A stretch of DNA of 32,135 bases from Phenylobacterium sp. (GTDB lineage: Bacteria; Pseudomonadota; Alphaproteobacteria; Caulobacterales; Caulobacteraceae): assembly GCA_003136395.1 (NCBI GenBank), contig PLEH01000053.1, forward strand, positions 1-32,135, read 5' to 3'. The notes below the pieces were generated by a model, which ran no database searches, was not told the DNA's origin, and saw only the letters and a list, made by a program, of their open reading frames with translations. Positions 6,813 through 26,739 of this stretch are shown one piece after another. Both the position numbers and the translations under genes were made by a program. Numbering within the stretch: position 1 is the stretch's first letter; every line of letters begins with the position of its first letter.

Positions 6813-8042
6813 ATGGCTGCCAAGCCCATCAAGAAAGTCGTGCTCGCCTATTCCGGCGGCCTCGACACCTCGATCATCCTGAAGTGGCTGCAGACCGAGT
6901 ATGGCGCCGAGGTGATCACCTTCACCGCCGACCTCGGCCAGGGCGAGGAGATCGAGCCTGCGCGCGCCAAGGCGCTGGCCGCCGGCGTAAAGCCGGAGAA
7001 CATCTTCATCGAGGATGTGCGCGAGGAGTTCGTCCGCGACTTCGTCTTCCCGATGTTCCGGGCCAACACCGTCTATGAGGGCCAGTACCTGCTCGGCACC
7101 TCGATCGCCCGGCCGCTGATCGCCAAGCGCCAGATCGAGATCGCCCGGATGCTGGGCGCCGACGCCGTCAGCCACGGCTCGACCGGCAAGGGCAACGACC
7201 AGGTCCGCTACGAGGTGGCCTATTACGCGTTGGAGCCCGACATCCAGGTGATCGCCCCCTGGAGGGAATGGGACTTCAAGTCCCGCGAGGCCCTGCTGGA
7301 CTTCGCCGAGAAACACCAGATCCAGATCACCAAGGACAAGCGCGGCGAAGCGCCCTTCAGCGTAGACGCCAACCTTCTGCACTCCTCCTCCGAGGGCAAG
7401 GTGCTGGAGGACCCGGCCGTCGAGGCCCCGGAATTTGTCCACATGCGCACGATCTCGCCCGAAGACGCCCCGGACAAGGCCACGGTCTTCACGCTCGACT
7501 TCGAGAAGGGCGATCCCGTCGCCATCGACGGCGTGAGGATGTCGCCGGCGACCCTGCTCACCCGGCTGAACGAACTCGGCCACGACAATGGCGTCGGCCG
7601 GCTCGACCTGGTGGAGAACCGCTACGTCGGCATGAAGTCCCGCGGCGTCTACGAGACGCCGGGCGGCACGATCCTGCTCGCCGCCCACCGGGGCATCGAG
7701 TCGATCACGCTGGACCGCGGGTCCATGCACCTGAAGGACGAACTGATGCCGCGCTATGCGGAGCTGATCTACAACGGCTTCTGGTTCACCCCGGAGCGGG
7801 AGATGCTGCAGGCGGCCATCGACCTGAGCCAGGCCATGGTCGCCGGCCAGGTGCGGGTGAAGCTCTACAAGGGCAATGTCACCATCACCGGCCGCACCAG
7901 CCCCTATTCGCTGTACGACCAGGACCTGGTCACCTTCGAAGAGGGCAAGGTCGCCTACGACCACCGCGACGCCACCGGCTTCATCAAGCTGAATGCGCTG
8001 CGCCTGCGGGTCCTGGCCAAGCGTGACAAGCGGGTTAAGTGA
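6813..8042 (+). CDS. argG: argininosuccinate synthase
   Basis: [62 protein letters not shown]-like region. Confidence 0.97.
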
Positions 8043-8046
8043 TTCA

Positions 8047-8184
8047 TCCCTCCCCGTGCCGGGGAGGGTGGCGAGCGCAGCGAGACGGGTGGGGAGGTGT
8101 GGGCCAGTGCGCCGAGTCCGCGCTTGAACGCGACTCCCCCACCCTGACGGCTCCGCCGTCTGTCCCTCCCCTAAAGAGGAGGGA
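8047..8184. repeat. ~138-bp multi-hairpin repeat, copy 1 (3' of argG)
   Basis: By-eye alignment to 24261-24398 and 26129-26264. Hairpins CCCTCCCCG-TGC-CGGGGAGGG, GAGT(C)CGCG-CTTGAA-CGCGACTC, GACGG-CTCCG-CCGTC. Confidence 0.9.
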
Positions 8185-8268: not shown

Positions 8269-8676
8269 ATGCAGCAACCTCACCTTCTGGTGGCGCTCGT
8301 CACCCTGCTTTCACTGCTGACCTATTTCTGGATGAGCGTCCGCGTGCCGGCGGCGCGCATCAAGGCCGGCATCCCGGCCCCCGCGATGACCGGAGAACCC
8401 GTGCTCGAGCGGACGATCCGGGCCCACTACAACACCCTGGAGTGGCTGCCGATCTACCTGGTCTCCCTGTGGCTCTTCGCCATCTACTGGAACGACATGG
8501 TGGCCGCCGCCATGGGCGGGGTCTGGATCATCGGCCGCATCGCCTATGCCCTGGGCTACGCCGCGGATGCGGCCAAGCGCGGGCCCGGCTTTCTGATCCA
8601 GTCAATCGCCACCGCGGTCCTGCTGTTCGGCGCGCTGGGGCGGATCGTCTACATCATGGCGGTGGTAGGGGCCTGA
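8269..8676 (+). CDS. MAPEG family protein
   Basis: VRVPAARIKAGI, VLERTIRAHYNTLEWLPIYL, IIGRIAYALGYAADAAKRGPGFLIQ are typical MAPEG motifs. Confidence 0.85.
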   Translation: MQQPHLLVALVTLLSLLTYFWMSVRVPAARIKAGIPAPAMTGEPVLERTIRAHYNTLEWLPIYLVSLWLFAIYWNDMVAAAMGGVWIIGRIAYALGYAADAAKRGPGFLIQSIATAVLLFGALGRIVYIMAVVGA

Positions 8677-9400: not shown

Positions 9401-9967
9401 CTAGAGCAGGTAGGCCACGGCGCACAGCACGAGCCCGGCGGCGCCGAGGCCGAGCGAACCGGCCCAGAAGGCCCGGCGCCGGGTGATGATCGCCACGGTG
9501 CAGATGGCGATGCCGATCTCCAGCAGGGTGGCGGCGGCCGTTAGCCAGTGGTGGTGGCGCTCATGGGCCCGGCTGGCGGCGAGAAGCTTGTCCCGTTCGG
9601 CCTCCTGCTCGAGCGCCTTCGCCTTGATCTCCGCCTGCTTGCCGATCTGCTCCCTGGCCGTTCCAGCGTACTGCGCCGCCTTTGCGCCGCCGGCGTCCGC
9701 GGCGATCCCGTAGAGGTGCTTCTTCAGGCTGTCGGCCTGATACTCGTCCCAGAGATCCGTGGCCTTGTCCTGGGAAAGCACCGCCTCGCTGGAGGACGTG
9801 ATCGCCCCGCCCGCCTCTATGGTCTCCAGGCTGCCGACACTCGCGGCCAGCACGGCCAGCACCGCGATGGTGATCGAGACGCGGCTGATGAACGGGTCGT
9901 GCTCGTGGGCCGCGTGCTCGGCGTGTTCGGCGTGCTCATGGGCGTCGAGCGCGGGGTCGTGGGTCAT
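9401..9967 (-). CDS. DUF4337 domain-containing protein
   Basis: His/Glu-rich N-terminus, VSITIAVLAVLAASVGSLETIEAG, SQDKATDLWDEYQADSLKKHLY, C-terminal TM pair. Confidence 0.8.
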   Translation of the reverse strand: MTHDPALDAHEHAEHAEHAAHEHDPFISRVSITIAVLAVLAASVGSLETIEAGGAITSSSEAVLSQDKATDLWDEYQADSLKKHLYGIAADAGGAKAAQYAGTAREQIGKQAEIKAKALEQEAERDKLLAASRAHERHHHWLTAAATLLEIGIAICTVAIITRRRAFWAGSLGLGAAGLVLCAVAYLL

Positions 9968-10028
9968 GCTGGCCTTCTTCGGGGATGCGCCGTGACGGGC
10001 GGCCTTGGTGTAGCTCAGCCGCGCCCAC

Positions 10029-10065
10029 GAAAAAACCCTGGCCGCGGATCACGCGGGCCAGGGTT
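10029..10065 (-). terminator. Rho-independent terminator for the PEPxxWA-CTERM gene
   Basis: Minus strand reads AACCCTGGCCCGCG-TGATC-CGCGGCCAGGGTTTTTTCG: long GC stem followed by a T-run, 44 bp past the CDS stop. Confidence 0.8.
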
Positions 10066-10108
10066 GTCTCTGTTCATCCTAAGGAGCCGGAGAGGCTCCC
10101 GGCTCGCC

Positions 10109-14974: not shown

Positions 14975-16204
14975 ATGAGACATCCCCTGCCCGAGACGGG
15001 CGTCGGCTGGCCGCAACTCCGGTCGCAGATGCTGGAGTACGCCCAGGGCGACGTCCGCTGGCGCGACGGCAAGACCGCGGTCTACGTCTTCAATGCCGGC
15101 GCGCAAGTCGAGCAGGTGCAGAAGGAGGCCTACGCCCTCTTCCAGTCGGAGAACGGCCTGGGCCCGGCCGCCTTCCCGAGCCTGAAGCGGATGGAGGAGG
15201 AGGTCGTGGGCTTCGGCCTTGGCCTGCTGCACGGCCCCGAGGGCGCGAACGGCGCGATCACTTCGGGCGGCACGGATTCCATCACCATGGCGGTGAAGGC
15301 CGCCCGCGACTTCGCCCGCAAGCAGAAGGGCGTCGCGGGGCCCCTCAACATCGTCCTGCCCCGCTCGGCGCACCCGGCCTTCGACAAGGCCTGCGCCCTG
15401 ATGGAGATCGAGGTCCGCCGCACCCCGCTCAGAGATTACCTCGCCGATCCTGCGGTAATGGCGGCGACGGCCGACGCGGCGACCGTGATGATCGTGGGCT
15501 CGGCGCCCAACTTCCCCTATGGCCTGATCGACCCGATCGGGGCGCTGTCGGACCTCGCGGTCGAGCGCGATCTCTGGCTGCACGTGGACGCCTGCGTCGG
15601 CGGCTACATCGCCCCCTTCGTGCGGATGAACGGCGGCGACATCGCGCCCTTCGATTTTGAGCTGCCGGGCGTGCGCTCGCTCTCCGCCGACCTGCACAAG
15701 TACGGCTACTGCGCCAAGGGCGCGTCCACCGTCTTCTTCCGCTCCGCCGAGCTCATGGCCTTCATGACCTTCGATTTCCGCGACTGGCCGGGCGGGCGGA
15801 TGGTGACCCCGACGCTGGCCGGCACGCGGCCGGGCGGGGCGATCTCGGCGGCCTGGGCGGTGATGAATTTCCTCGGCGTCGAGGGCTACCGGGCCAAGCA
15901 CGCCCTGGTGACTGAGGCCCGCGAGACGATCGCCGCCGGCGTCGAGGCCTTGGGCTTCACGGTGCTGGGCCGCCCGCAGCTCGGCATCCTCGTCTTCACC
16001 CGCGCCGACGTGGACTGCCTGGCGCTCTGGGCGAAGCTGCGCGAGCGCGGCTGGTTCACCGGCGTCACCACCGAGCCCAAGAGCCTGCACCTGATGCTGT
16101 CGCCGGTGCATGCGCAGGTGGTCGGGGAGTACCTGGCCGATGTGGCCTGGGCGCTGGGAGAGGTCGGCGGGTCGGCCACAAAGGTCGAGGCGCGGTACTC
16201 GTAG
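14975..16204 (+). CDS. PLP-dependent decarboxylase/lyase, sphingosine-1-phosphate-lyase-like
   Basis: AITSGGTDSITMAVKAARD, HVDACVGGYIAPFVR, SLSADLHKYGYCAKGAS (PLP-Lys region) and GGAISAAWAVMNFLGVEGY. Confidence 0.85.
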   Translation: MRHPLPETGVGWPQLRSQMLEYAQGDVRWRDGKTAVYVFNAGAQVEQVQKEAYALFQSENGLGPAAFPSLKRMEEEVVGFGLGLLHGPEGANGAITSGGTDSITMAVKAARDFARKQKGVAGPLNIVLPRSAHPAFDKACALMEIEVRRTPLRDYLADPAVMAATADAATVMIVGSAPNFPYGLIDPIGALSDLAVERDLWLHVDACVGGYIAPFVRMNGGDIAPFDFELPGVRSLSADLHKYGYCAKGASTVFFRSAELMAFMTFDFRDWPGGRMVTPTLAGTRPGGAISAAWAVMNFLGVEGYRAKHALVTEARETIAAGVEALGFTVLGRPQLGILVFTRADVDCLALWAKLRERGWFTGVTTEPKSLHLMLSPVHAQVVGEYLADVAWALGEVGGSATKVEARYS

Positions 16205-16253
16205 GGGTCGGGCCGATCGGTTCTCGACGGCGCTCGGGCAAGATACTCAAAGT

Positions 16254-16373
16254 CCTCTCCCCCTTGCGGGGAGAGGGTTGGGTGTGGGGGTGTCGGCTCG
16301 GCGCTCGAGGGGCGAAAACTCGGAATCACAGCTTGCACCCCCACCCCTGACCCCTCCCCGCAAGGGGGAGGGG
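16254..16373. repeat. Palindromic multi-hairpin element between convergent genes
   Basis: CCTCTCCCC/GGGGAGAGG left hairpin, GTGGGGGTG (16284-16292)/CACCCCCAC (16336-16344) inner stem, CCCCTCCCC-GCAAG-GGGGAGGGG right hairpin (16351-16373). Confidence 0.85.
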
Positions 16374-16457
16374 AACGTCGGGGCAGACCCGAAGCCCAAG
16401 CAAAGATAGCCGCCGTGGATTTAAGGGTTGGTGGGTTTGCGGGAAAACATCCGCTGC

Positions 16458-16778
16458 TCACTTGCCGTGTGAAATCGCCACCACCCGACCATCAGACTTC
16501 GTGATGAGAATCTCCGCGACCCCGCCTTTGCAGGACTGTCCTCCACAGTTGAGCGTGCCCTGTACCGTCCAGCGTTCGCCCTTCAGCGTCGCGTGAAACG
16601 GTTCTTCGCCCCGAAGCTCGTCACCGTAGATTGGCGTCAGGATCGCCTTCGCTATCACAAGCGCTGTCTTTGCGTCCGGAACCGCCCCGGCCGCGGGAAT
16701 ACCGTGTCGATCCGCAGCGCTGACTTGCTGGGCAGAACAAAGCACCATGGCGATCGTCAGGACCGTTCCTCTCAGCAT
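16458..16778 (-). CDS. Secreted NTF2-fold immunity-like protein
   Basis: Signal peptide, then VPDAKTALVIAKAILTPIYGDE..P(F)HATLKGERWTVQGTL..GGVAEILITKSDGRVVAISHGK, resembling the NTF2-fold immunity (PF15631-type) pattern. Confidence 0.65.
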   Translation of the reverse strand: MLRGTVLTIAMVLCSAQQVSAADRHGIPAAGAVPDAKTALVIAKAILTPIYGDELRGEEPFHATLKGERWTVQGTLNCGGQSCKGGVAEILITKSDGRVVAISHGK

Positions 16779-23269: not shown

Positions 23270-24256
23270 ATGGCCGCCCGCAAGCCGAAAGTCATCGTCA
23301 CGCGAAAACTCCCCGATCCGGTGGAGACGCGGATGCGCGAACTGTTCGACACCGAGCTCAACCTCACCGACGCGCCGTTGACCCGCGCCCAGCTCTCCGA
23401 CGCGGTCGCCCGGGCCGATGTGCTGGCCCCGACCATCACCGACAAGATCGATGAGACCCTGCTGGCCCGCGCCGGGCCGCAGCTGAAGCTGATCGCCAAC
23501 TTCGGGGCCGGCATCGACCACATCGACGTGGCCGCCGCCAACGCCAGGGGGATCACCGTCACCAATACGCCGGGCGTGCTCACGGAGGACACCGCCGATC
23601 TGACCATGGCGCTGATCATGGCGGTGGCCCGCCGGATCGTCGAAGGCGCCAATGTCACCCAGGCCGGCGAGTTCACCGGCTGGACCCCCACATGGATGAT
23701 GGGGCGCCGGATCACCGGCAAGCGGCTGGGGATCATCGGCATGGGCCGGATCGGCCAGGCGGTGGCGCGCCGGGCGCGCGCCTTCGGCCTGCAGATCCAC
23801 TACCACAACCGAAAACCGGTCAGCCCGCGGATCGCCGAGGAGCTGGAGGCCACCTACTGGGAGAGTCTCGACCAGATGCTGGGCCGCACCGACATCATCA
23901 CGGTCCACTCGCCGCACACGCCGGCCACCTATCACCTGCTCTCGGCCAGGCGGCTGAAGCTTCTGCAGCCCCACGCCATCCTGATCAACACCGCCCGCGG
24001 CGAGATCATCGACGAGACGGCGCTGGCCGAGCTCCTGAAATCGGGCGCCATCGCCGGCGCCGGCCTCGACGTCTTCGAGTTCGAGCCGAAGATCAATCCG
24101 AAGCTGCTGGGCCTGCCCAACGCGGTCCTCTTGCCCCACCTGGGCTCGGCGACCATCGAGGGTCGCATCGACATGGGCGAGAAGGTGATCATCAACATCC
24201 GCACCTGGATGGACGGCCACAAGCCGCCGGACCGGGTCATCCCGTCGATGATGTGA
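23270..24256 (+). CDS. 2-hydroxyacid dehydrogenase, D-glycerate/hydroxypyruvate-type
   Basis: NFGAGIDHIDVAAANARGITVTNTPGVLTEDTADL, GKRLGIIGMGRIGQAVARRARAFGL, LINTARGEIIDETALAELL. Confidence 0.92.
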   Translation: MAARKPKVIVTRKLPDPVETRMRELFDTELNLTDAPLTRAQLSDAVARADVLAPTITDKIDETLLARAGPQLKLIANFGAGIDHIDVAAANARGITVTNTPGVLTEDTADLTMALIMAVARRIVEGANVTQAGEFTGWTPTWMMGRRITGKRLGIIGMGRIGQAVARRARAFGLQIHYHNRKPVSPRIAEELEATYWESLDQMLGRTDIITVHSPHTPATYHLLSARRLKLLQPHAILINTARGEIIDETALAELLKSGAIAGAGLDVFEFEPKINPKLLGLPNAVLLPHLGSATIEGRIDMGEKVIINIRTWMDGHKPPDRVIPSMM

Positions 24257-24260
24257 GCTA

Positions 24261-24398
24261 TCCCTCCCCGTTCCGGGGAGGGTGGCGAGCAAAGCGAGAC
24301 GGGTGGGGAGGTGTGGGCCGGCGTGCTGAGACCGCGCTTGAACGCGACTCCCCCACCCTGATCGCTGCGCGATCTGTCCCTCCCCATCAGGGGAGGGA
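24261..24398. repeat. ~138-bp multi-hairpin repeat, copy 2 (between convergent genes)
   Basis: Same orientation and near-identical sequence to copy 1. 3' stem GATCG-CTGCG-CGATC covaries with GACGG-CTCCG-CCGTC of copy 1. Confidence 0.92.
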
Positions 24399-25130
24399 GG
24401 AACACACCGGACACTCCGGGTCGGCGCCCACCTTCACCGTCCGCGTCTCCGCCGAGAGCGCGTCGTAGATCAGCAGGCGCCCCGTCAGCGGCTCGCCCGC
24501 GCCCGTGACCAGCTTGATCGCCTCGAGCGCCATCATCGAGCCGACGACGCCGGCCAGGGCCCCCACAACCCCGACCGCGACGCAGGTCTCGGCGTCGGGT
24601 GGAATTTCAGGGACCAGGCAGCGATAGCAGGGCTTGCCGGCGAAGACGCCCACCTGGCCGGTCCAGCGGCCGATGGCGCCGGAGATGAGCGGCTTGCCGT
24701 GGCGCACGCAGGCGGCGTTGACCTCATAGCGGACGGCGAAGTTGTCGGTGCCGTCGAGCACGATGTCGACGCCCTCCACCAGCTCGTCGGCGTTCGCGGC
24801 GCTGAAGGCCTCATTGAGGCCGGCCACGAAGATGTGCGGGTTGAGCGCCGCCAAACGGTCGGTCCCGGCCTCGGCCTTGGGCCGCCCGATATCGTCTTCA
24901 GTGAAGAGCACCTGACGCTGCAGGTTGGAGAGGTCCACCGCGTCCGGGTCGACCAGGATCAGCGTTCCGATCCCGGCGGCGGCCAGGTAGAGGGCGGCGG
25001 GCGAGCCCAGGCCGCCGGCGCCGACGATGAGCGCGCGCGCGGCCTTCAGCTTCTGCTGGCCCGGGCCGCCCACCTCGCGCAGCACCAGGTGGCGGGCGTA
25101 GCGCTCGATCTCGGCGTCGGTGAAGGCCAT
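24387..25130 (-). CDS. HesA/MoeB/ThiF-family adenylyltransferase
   Basis: RYARHLVLREVGGPGQQKLKAARALIVGAGGLGSPAALYLAAAGIGTL, DGTDNFAVRYEVN, zinc CxxC pairs CYRC and CPVC near the C-terminus. Confidence 0.92.
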   Translation of the reverse strand: MAFTDAEIERYARHLVLREVGGPGQQKLKAARALIVGAGGLGSPAALYLAAAGIGTLILVDPDAVDLSNLQRQVLFTEDDIGRPKAEAGTDRLAALNPHIFVAGLNEAFSAANADELVEGVDIVLDGTDNFAVRYEVNAACVRHGKPLISGAIGRWTGQVGVFAGKPCYRCLVPEIPPDAETCVAVGVVGALAGVVGSMMALEAIKLVTGAGEPLTGRLLIYDALSAETRTVKVGADPECPVCSSLP

Positions 25131-25279
25131 GGGGGCCATCTTGGCGCCCAGCCGCGCATGCGCAACCCGCATCGCGGCGCCGGTCGCATGCGGCGGCTCA
25201 TTCGTCGCTCTGGATCGCGACGGGCGCTTCGCGCTAGTCCATAGGCGAGGATGACGCCCCGGGGGGAGCCTGAAGACCC

Positions 25280-26140
25280 ATGCTGAAGATGATCCGGGGG
25301 CTCGCCGCCGCCGCCCTGCTCGCCACCGCCGCCCAGGCCGCGCCACCCTCGCAACCGGCCGATCCCGCGCCCGTCATCGCGGCCGAGCACGCCTTCGCGG
25401 CCCGCGCCGCGGTCGTCGGGGTCGCGCCGAGCTTCCTGGAATATATGACCGACGACGCCATCGTCTTCAGCCCGGACCCGTTGCTGGCCCGGGCGGTCTA
25501 TGGCGGCCGCCCGCCGCCCAAGCTCCCGAAGGACGGCGGGACGCTGCTGAACTGGTGGCCCAATTTCGCTGGGATCTCACGGTCCGGCGACCTCGGCTTC
25601 ACCACCGGGCCGGCGAGCGTCAACAGCGGCAAGCCGCGAGTCTTCTACTTCACTGTCTGGGCCCGCCAGCCCGACGGCGGCTGGAAGTGGGTCTACGACG
25701 GCGGCGTCGAGGCCGACGGGGCGGCGGCGGTCGGCCCAGAGGCCACGCCCATCGCCCTGCCGCCGGGGGACGCGCGGCCCATGGCCCCGGACGCCGCCAT
25801 GAACCAGGTCCGCGCCGCCGAGATCGCGCTCGCCGCCCGCGCCAGGACCGATGTCGTGGCGGCCCTCAAGGCGGTTCTGGCGCCTGACGCGCGCGTGCAG
25901 GGTTCGGATCTTGGACCGGCGACGACCGCGGCCGCGGTGGACAGGGAACTGGCGACCCGCGCCAAGGTCATCGCCTTCGGACCGATCGGCGGCGGCGCCT
26001 CGCACGCCGGCGACCTCGTCTGGACCTACGGCGACGCGCGCTGGGCGGAGGGCCGCGGCCACTATGTCCGGATCTGGCAACGCCGCGCCGGCAAGTGGGC
26101 GCTGGTGTTCGATCAGATCATCAAGGTTTCCCTCCCCTAA
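25280..26140 (+). CDS. Exported DUF4440/SnoaL-like (NTF2-type) protein
   Basis: Signal peptide, AEHAFAARAAVVGVAPSFLEYMTDDAIVFSP, FYFTVWARQPDGGWKWVYDGG; second similar half. Last residues SLP-stop come from the repeat. Confidence 0.78.
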   Translation: MLKMIRGLAAAALLATAAQAAPPSQPADPAPVIAAEHAFAARAAVVGVAPSFLEYMTDDAIVFSPDPLLARAVYGGRPPPKLPKDGGTLLNWWPNFAGISRSGDLGFTTGPASVNSGKPRVFYFTVWARQPDGGWKWVYDGGVEADGAAAVGPEATPIALPPGDARPMAPDAAMNQVRAAEIALAARARTDVVAALKAVLAPDARVQGSDLGPATTAAAVDRELATRAKVIAFGPIGGGASHAGDLVWTYGDARWAEGRGHYVRIWQRRAGKWALVFDQIIKVSLP

Positions 26141-26264
26141 TGGGAGGGTGGCCGGCGAAGCGAGACGGGTGGGGAGGTGTGGGTCGGGACTCTGAGTCGG
26201 CGCTTTAACGCGACTGCCCCAACCTGATCGCTGCGCGATCTGTCCCTCCCCATTAAGGGGGGAA
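26129..26264. repeat. ~138-bp multi-hairpin repeat, copy 3 (between convergent genes)
   Basis: tccctcccctaatgggagggtggccggcgaagcgagacgggtggggaggtgtggg...cctgatcgctgcgcgatctgtccctccccattaagggggga; more diverged, same hairpins. Confidence 0.9.
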
Positions 26265-26265
26265 A

Positions 26266-26739
26266 CTAGCCCCGCTCGCGGCGCGCTTCCCAGATCGCCT
26301 GTTCCAGGGCCCGGGCGAAGTCGGCGCGCTCGCCGGGGCTGAGCGCCTGGGCGACGGGCACGTCCTTTCCGGAGAGCGCCAGGCGCACCCCGATTGTGCG
26401 CTCCTCGTCCTTCTCGACGGTGACACGGGTGAAGGCCGTCGGGCTTTCCCAGACGACCTTGGTCCAGTTGGGCGCCTCGTGGGTGACCACCACGTCGCGC
26501 GCGGTGATGGTCACCCGCTCGATCCGCCGCGCGCCGGCGAAGCTGACCGCGAAGGCCACGATCACCGCCAGCACGTCGAGGGCCATGAAGAACGGCACCA
26601 GCGTCGCGCCGTAATAGACGAAGACCGCCGAGGAGACGCAGTTGCAGAGCGTCACCACGGCGATCAGGATGATGAAGCCACGCTCGGAGAGCGATCGGTG
26701 CGGCCTGATCACCGCGTCCATGTAGGTCTGGCCGAGCAT
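26266..26739 (-). CDS. DUF2244 domain-containing membrane protein
   Basis: IRPHRSLSERGFIILIAVVTL, two TM segments, W/P pattern ...TRVTVEKDE..; typical DUF2244 layout. Confidence 0.85.
   Translation of the reverse strand: MLGQTYMDAVIRPHRSLSERGFIILIAVVTLCNCVSSAVFVYYGATLVPFFMALDVLAVIVAFAVSFAGARRIERVTITARDVVVTHEAPNWTKVVWESPTAFTRVTVEKDEERTIGVRLALSGKDVPVAQALSPGERADFARALEQAIWEARRERG

Follow-up and report, generated by a model that had tools for sequence, protein, structure and literature searches.

Three copies of a near-palindromic repeat in the window

The window (the whole 32,135-nt stretch that we analyzed) is contig C104 of the source genome G000, a 4.9-Mb draft that is 92% complete, and it carries three copies of a near-palindromic element of ~140 bp in a single orientation. 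Copy 1 lies between argG, which ends at 8042 and whose stop codon is 3 nt from the start of the copy, and a MAPEG-like gene (8290–8676). Copy 2 is flanked by a convergent pair, a hydroxyacid dehydrogenase-like gene (23270–24256, plus strand) and a ThiF-like gene (24387–25346, minus strand) whose stop codon falls inside the H4 loop of the copy, and copy 3 is flanked by convergent genes at 25280–26140 (plus strand) and 26266–26739 (minus strand). These positions and the shared orientation agree with a first-pass annotation made from the sequence alone, which had put the identity of copies 1 and 2 at roughly 85–90% by eye; the measured identity to copy 2 is 88% for copy 1 and 85% for copy 3. We also confirmed that the element has no ORF of its own and that no transposase lies nearby. 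The features are given below, with scores from R1, a covariance model trained on 26 copies.

8047–8184, plus strand: copy 1 (R1 match 150.7 bits, E 9e-32)
8048–8068: H1 of copy 1
8087–8094 and 8137–8144: 5′ and 3′ arms of stem S, copy 1
8114–8118: central GANTC of copy 1, reading GAGTC
8146–8160: H3 of copy 1, GACGGCTCCGCCGTC
8164–8183: H4 of copy 1
24261–24398, plus strand: copy 2 (R1 match 158.1 bits, E 1.7e-33)
24262–24282, plus strand: H1 terminal hairpin of copy 2, CCCTCCCC/GGGGAGGG; 95% of cells paired (26 copies)
24283–24300, plus strand: H2 region of copy 2, TGGCGAGCAAAGCGAGAC; distinct stems listed across genera
24301–24308, plus strand: S stem of copy 2, 5′ arm, GGGTGGGG
24309–24350, plus strand: core of copy 2 inside S, housing the GANTC-centered palindrome
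24351–24358, plus strand: S stem of copy 2, 3′ arm, CCCCACCC
24360–24374, plus strand: H3 hairpin of copy 2, GATCGCTGCGCGATC; compensatory changes at 3 of 6 pairs
24378–24397, plus strand: H4 terminal hairpin of copy 2, the second CCCTCCCC/GGGGAGGG
24387–24389, minus strand: TGA in the H4 loop of copy 2, stop codon of the convergent gene
26129–26264, plus strand: copy 3, more degraded (R1 match 128.4 bits)
26131–26148: H1 of copy 3
26138–26140, plus strand: TAA in the H1 loop of copy 3, ending the ORF 25280–26140
26167–26174 and 26217–26224: 5′ and 3′ arms of S, copy 3, the latter degraded
26194–26198: central GANTC of copy 3, reading GAGTC
26226–26240: H3 of copy 3
26244–26263: H4 of copy 3

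A weak fourth R1 match inside the window (16253–16374, 32 bits), which overlaps an ORF-like frame (15886–16461) with PHPTLSPQGGE, is probably another GC-rich repeat. At gathering level, a tRNA was the only Rfam match in the whole window.

Five helices and a mosaic of arms and cores

The element follows the plan H1–H2–(S enclosing the core)–H3–H4, and its termini form terminal inverted repeats, TCCCTCCCC...GGGGAGGGA. H2, weak in copy 2, forms a hairpin of perfect pairing and variable sequence in other genera. The central hairpin proposed in the first-pass annotation gave way, as the center of the core, to an alternative GANTC-centered palindrome around CTGANTCAG, which is better backed by covariation in the 26 copies (two-sided changes at three pairs versus one).

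In Caulobacter, the S core appears usually to be centered on a GANTC (CcrM methylation) site, and the GANTC at the core's center of symmetry is a candidate for CcrM methylation. Copy 2 is without the central GANTC, reading GAGAC there, and retains GACTC at 24346–24350. The core region contains GANTC in 39 of 48 scorable copies in the source genome, compared to 18% of shuffled cores, an upper figure for the central site given that the core pattern sometimes extends into H3, and in nine of ten copies in genome G015 (shuffled cores, 18–20%). The word itself is depleted in the source genome, with 483 occurrences seen versus 1113 expected in 386 kb. In other genera the scaffold persists and GANTC is often gone. 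With GANTC in 0 of 9 copies in G160 and 3 of 8 in G087, the site was rejected as the defining mark of the wider superfamily considered below.

The outer arms are of two types, T (GGGTGG) and D (GGGACAG), and the cores occur in two orientations. The combination T-a...b-D is found in 17 copies and the inverted T-b...a-D in seven, with T...T forms present as well; because both core orientations occur between T and D arms, the core has been inverted or exchanged relative to the arms. The unpaired linkers GGTGGC..GAC and TG..CTGT are also conserved. A G-quadruplex noted by eye (GGGGAGGG...GGGTGGGG) is not a general feature, being absent from subfamilies such as GGGAGAAGG...GGATGAGGGG.

Compensatory changes in every helix

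On either strand, each window copy has a more stable predicted fold than its dinucleotide-shuffled versions (z −3.1 to −5.4). The terminal hairpins H1 and H4 (a and e of the first-pass annotation) can also pair mutually into one long hairpin, and the minimum-energy fold is often this end-to-end one. The local hairpins are favored by the variation in H3 and H2 and, together with S, are supported by covariation. The exchange first read by eye in the 3′ hairpin (stem d), GACGG/CCGTC versus GATCG/CGATC, is exact and compensatory, and among the 26 copies pair 122–137 is A-U in 12, G-C in 12 and C-G in two. Two-sided changes within the source genome fall in H3 and the core center. Over the whole structure, covariation in these 26 copies is 0.158, versus 0.107 ± 0.006 after shuffling, and none of 500 shuffles reached the observed value.

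We extended this comparison to 44 loci, one per genome, in which 94% of cells are paired and 231 are changed on both sides, versus 57 (maximum 75) in shuffled controls and 15–42 with slid partners; the alignment was fitted to the structure and hence leans towards it, although the arms are readable directly. In this alignment, H1 has two-sided changes between genomes, and every helix shows compensatory changes across the class. An arm-swapping test, biased because the parser picks complementary arms, was used just for listing distinct stems. A covariation check (run without R-scape) and a genome-wide copy search, which found covariation and many more than three copies, uphold the proposal that the repeat is structured, interspersed and marked by genuine compensatory changes.

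The arms of H1 co-vary with those of S, with which they form no base pairs (p about 4e-6 and 2e-7, uncorrected for shared ancestry), and this joint variation defines subfamilies, such as the GGGAGAAGG...GGATGAGGGG type. The covariation may fit selection on the fold or palindrome-correcting copying alike. An explanation of the compensatory changes by mutation or copying bias (hairpin-templated correction, gene conversion or core inversion), with no selection on the fold, would accommodate both this co-variation and the cores inverted relative to the outer arms, but it leaves the stop-codon proximity and the spread of the element unexplained and does not predict the conservation of the unpaired linkers. 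We regard it as rather improbable.

The repeat is abundant and widespread

A nucleotide search of the source genome located at least about 40 places (with 40 of 82 candidates scored), and R1 located about 52, in both orientations and with each place counted once for both strands. The description of the element as a three-copy repeat is thus correct for the window and falls well short for the genome. Two further copies lie exactly at contig ends (C83:1–139 and C236:26736–26875), which indicates that the repeat breaks the assembly and that the true copy number is probably higher.

With the source genome included in each count, R1 has matches in 48 of 60 genomes of the genus, 92 of 119 genomes (17 of 22 genera) of the family and 41 of 289 sampled genomes of the class. 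Copy numbers range from none to many between congeners. Positive genomes include Caulobacter sp. Root1455, C. vibrioides OR37, a Brevundimonas metagenome-assembled genome (MAG), Peiella sedimenti, Chelatococcus caeni, a Methylocystis, Mesorhizobium zhangyense and Aminobacter niigataensis; the Bartonella, Ensifer and Shimia genomes examined and a Brucellaceae MAG had no match. A search of known plasmids and phages also returned no match, which leaves the spread between species unexplained.

Copies accumulate directly behind stop codons

To place copies relative to genes, we used a simple codon-usage gene caller that had been verified on the window, which left 45 copies scorable. Within 11 nt of a stop codon lie 37 of the 45, against about 7% expected (p 9e-36), and 19 lie between convergent genes, against 15% expected (p 8e-6). 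Between codirectional genes, 18 of 21 copies are closer to the upstream gene's stop than to the downstream gene's start, and the strand of the element shows no preference relative to the gene (same in 12, opposite in nine). Six genes have their stop codon in a terminal loop (...SLP*), including one at each of the two convergent window copies.

All but two of the 52 places are intergenic. One exception (L141:477–2279, on C138, element at 9961–10104) is a copy in frame within an asparagine synthase gene, where it adds about 48 residues between the GATase_7 (amino acids 42–156) and Asn_synthase (amino acids 268–547) domains; strictly 3′ placement is therefore not absolute. The other (L218:2–2320, on C243, element at 24089–24224) is a partial copy in an open frame that joins TauD-family and RecQ-like helicase genes, and it appears to reflect either loss of the TauD stop codon or an assembly error.

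The placement bears on the view that the element is a functional RNA, a 3′-UTR regulator or terminator held by selection at each locus and not mobile. Tight positioning behind stop codons, class-wide compensation in each helix and the suitability of an orientation-free palindrome for convergent genes are all in keeping with such a role. This view is at odds with the lack of strand bias, the copy within a coding gene, the strong differences in copy number between congeners and the absence of T-run terminators around copies 2 and 3 (no site with a G+C hairpin and T-run in 23900–26500, which spans both), and it is already weakened by orthologous sites in close congeners that are empty or hold unrelated repeats. 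We therefore consider it unlikely. In another genus of the family, one copy of the element has an above-cut-off match to the Caulobacter sRNA CrfA (RF01527; L187:1355–1463) ending about 40 nt away.

Orthologous sites reveal insertion

Three relatives (L354, L356 and L358) have no element at the copy 3 site, where the same two convergent genes are 16–29 nt apart, identifying the elements as insertions. In the source genome, the last codons of the upstream gene have been replaced at this site and the element provides the stop codon; at this point the relatives have different, longer gene ends. Copy 1 is also absent from the relatives examined. At the copy 2 site, some congeners have spacers of 9–26 nt and others have other palindromic repeats. 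In other Caulobacter genomes (L235, L236, L238, L239, L242, L245 and L263), different palindromes (TTCCCCCGGTAC..., CTTCTCCCGG..., CATCCCGGCGAAAGCCGGGAT... and GCTCCCC...) occupy the orthologous site, which marks this spacer as a hotspot for several repeat families.

Among 24 copies, we found no target-site duplication beyond chance (3.13 shared bases versus 3.04 with swapped flanks) and no excess of inverted flanks. The sequence at the copy 3 site suggests that bases were lost rather than duplicated. The lack of target-site duplication leaves classical DDE transposition unsupported.

REP/BIME elements are linked elsewhere to REP-associated tyrosine transposases (RAYTs), and the first-pass annotation had pointed to a search for such an enzyme. 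The element resembles REPs in being palindromic, intergenic, multi-copy and stop-proximal (PMC12306157), yet G000 contains no Y1_Tnp (PF01797) match and neither do the copy-rich congeners G011, G015, G020, G032 and G041. The domain is present in 11 of 60 congeners, is missing from most of the copy-rich ones and does not track copy number. Although its absence from G000 is weak by itself in a draft that is 92% complete, the combined result largely refutes a RAYT as the general mechanism, and mobilization as a RAYT-dependent REP/BIME element is very improbable.

The earlier suggestion of mobilization in trans fits the insertion polymorphism at copy 3. Our best reading, which we hold with moderate confidence, is that the element is a non-autonomous, mosaic REP/MITE-like palindromic repeat that is copied in trans, settles close to stop codons and is either tolerated there or used as a bidirectional 3′-UTR hairpin. 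We infer mobility in trans and, from position and stability, activity at the 3′ end. Trans-acting machinery would copy a gene-less repeat to many places. The copies accumulate right behind stop codons, most of all in convergent pairs, and the element there would join the 3′ UTR of one gene or of both, on either strand. Its stable hairpins would then most likely act as a bidirectional RNA 3′-end structure, as a barrier to 3′ exonucleases or by attenuating transcription; alternatively, they may be merely tolerated.

Relation to known repeat families

The element is abundant, structured and of insertion type, and belongs to a known kind (REP/MITE/CIR-like); its folded plan, with changing sequence, extends across many alphaproteobacteria, a reach that had not been evident. 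The CcrM-associated intergenic repeat (CIR), named in Caulobacter by Chen & Shapiro in 2003, is described as about 110 bp long, with two arms and a linker, no end-to-end pairing and a strictly intergenic location (PMC2229807, PMC10969869). On that description, CIR and the element share their host organisms, an intergenic location, a length somewhat above 100 bp, inverted repeats, the lack of an ORF and a conserved GANTC at or in the terminal loop of one arm. They differ in that the element is about 140 bp long with five helices, can pair end to end and has one intragenic copy. Matched by description and not by sequence, the element is probably of the CIR kind, and the earlier statement that it belongs to no established family is probably wrong, given the methylation site and location shared with CIR in these accounts (PMC2229807, PMC10969869).

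Br-REP1, from Bradyrhizobium, is a close analogue. Br-REP1 and Br-REP2 are likewise clustered palindromes that lie in the overlapping 3′ UTRs of convergent genes, vary in copy number among related alphaproteobacteria and have GANTC words in the central palindrome, but their sequence is different and three stem-loops are described, with no five-helix model (PMC5082802). Enterobacterial REP/BIME elements are also extragenic palindromes behind stop codons; in Escherichia coli, REPs placed close to a stop codon influence both translation and the decay of mRNA, with a translation effect reported for a REP within 15 nt of the stop codon and effects on mRNA 3′ ends as well (PMC12306157, PMC5082802). 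Unlike the element, REP/BIME units are shorter and have another sequence, and G000 has no RAYT.

No Rfam model reaches its cut-off on the element here. The model of whalefall-1 (RF01762), reported as an independent RNA known from no source but whale-fall metagenomes (PMC2864571), aligns over its full 56 nt to one half of many copies at 22–31 bits (best 31.3 bits in L121; 25.6 bits for copy 2), below the gathering cut-off of 37. Its register on the element is H4′, GACAGA, H3′ and TCAGGGTG, and its arms follow the element's H1/S co-variation. Because unrelated Rfam models (miRNA and viral ones) score similarly below threshold, so that GC-rich hairpins can reach such values by chance, and the copies are non-independent, we keep whalefall-1 as a lead only.

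Intergenic palindromes of GC-rich alphaproteobacteria are usually divided into small families, each handled by itself. Here, one covariance model spans 41 of 289 class genomes with covariation in each helix, and we tentatively raise the possibility, which we hold to be doubtful, that CIR-like, whalefall-1-like and similar alphaproteobacterial palindromes form one class-wide, five-helix mosaic superfamily, whose fold and H1/S code are kept because a single enzyme or single-strand copying process recognizes folded DNA. Sequences would then change from one subfamily to the next without loss of the fold or of the matched H1/S arm code. Such a superfamily would offer one target in the search for what copies these repeats and natural pairs of insertions and empty sites with which to probe a hairpin right behind a stop codon, and whalefall-1, a structured RNA of unknown function, might be half a repeat. 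The Rhizobium-specific intergenic mosaic elements (RIME) may be a further lead to possible relatives. Like the element, RIME are alphaproteobacterial, intergenic and mosaic (cited in PMC2873474).
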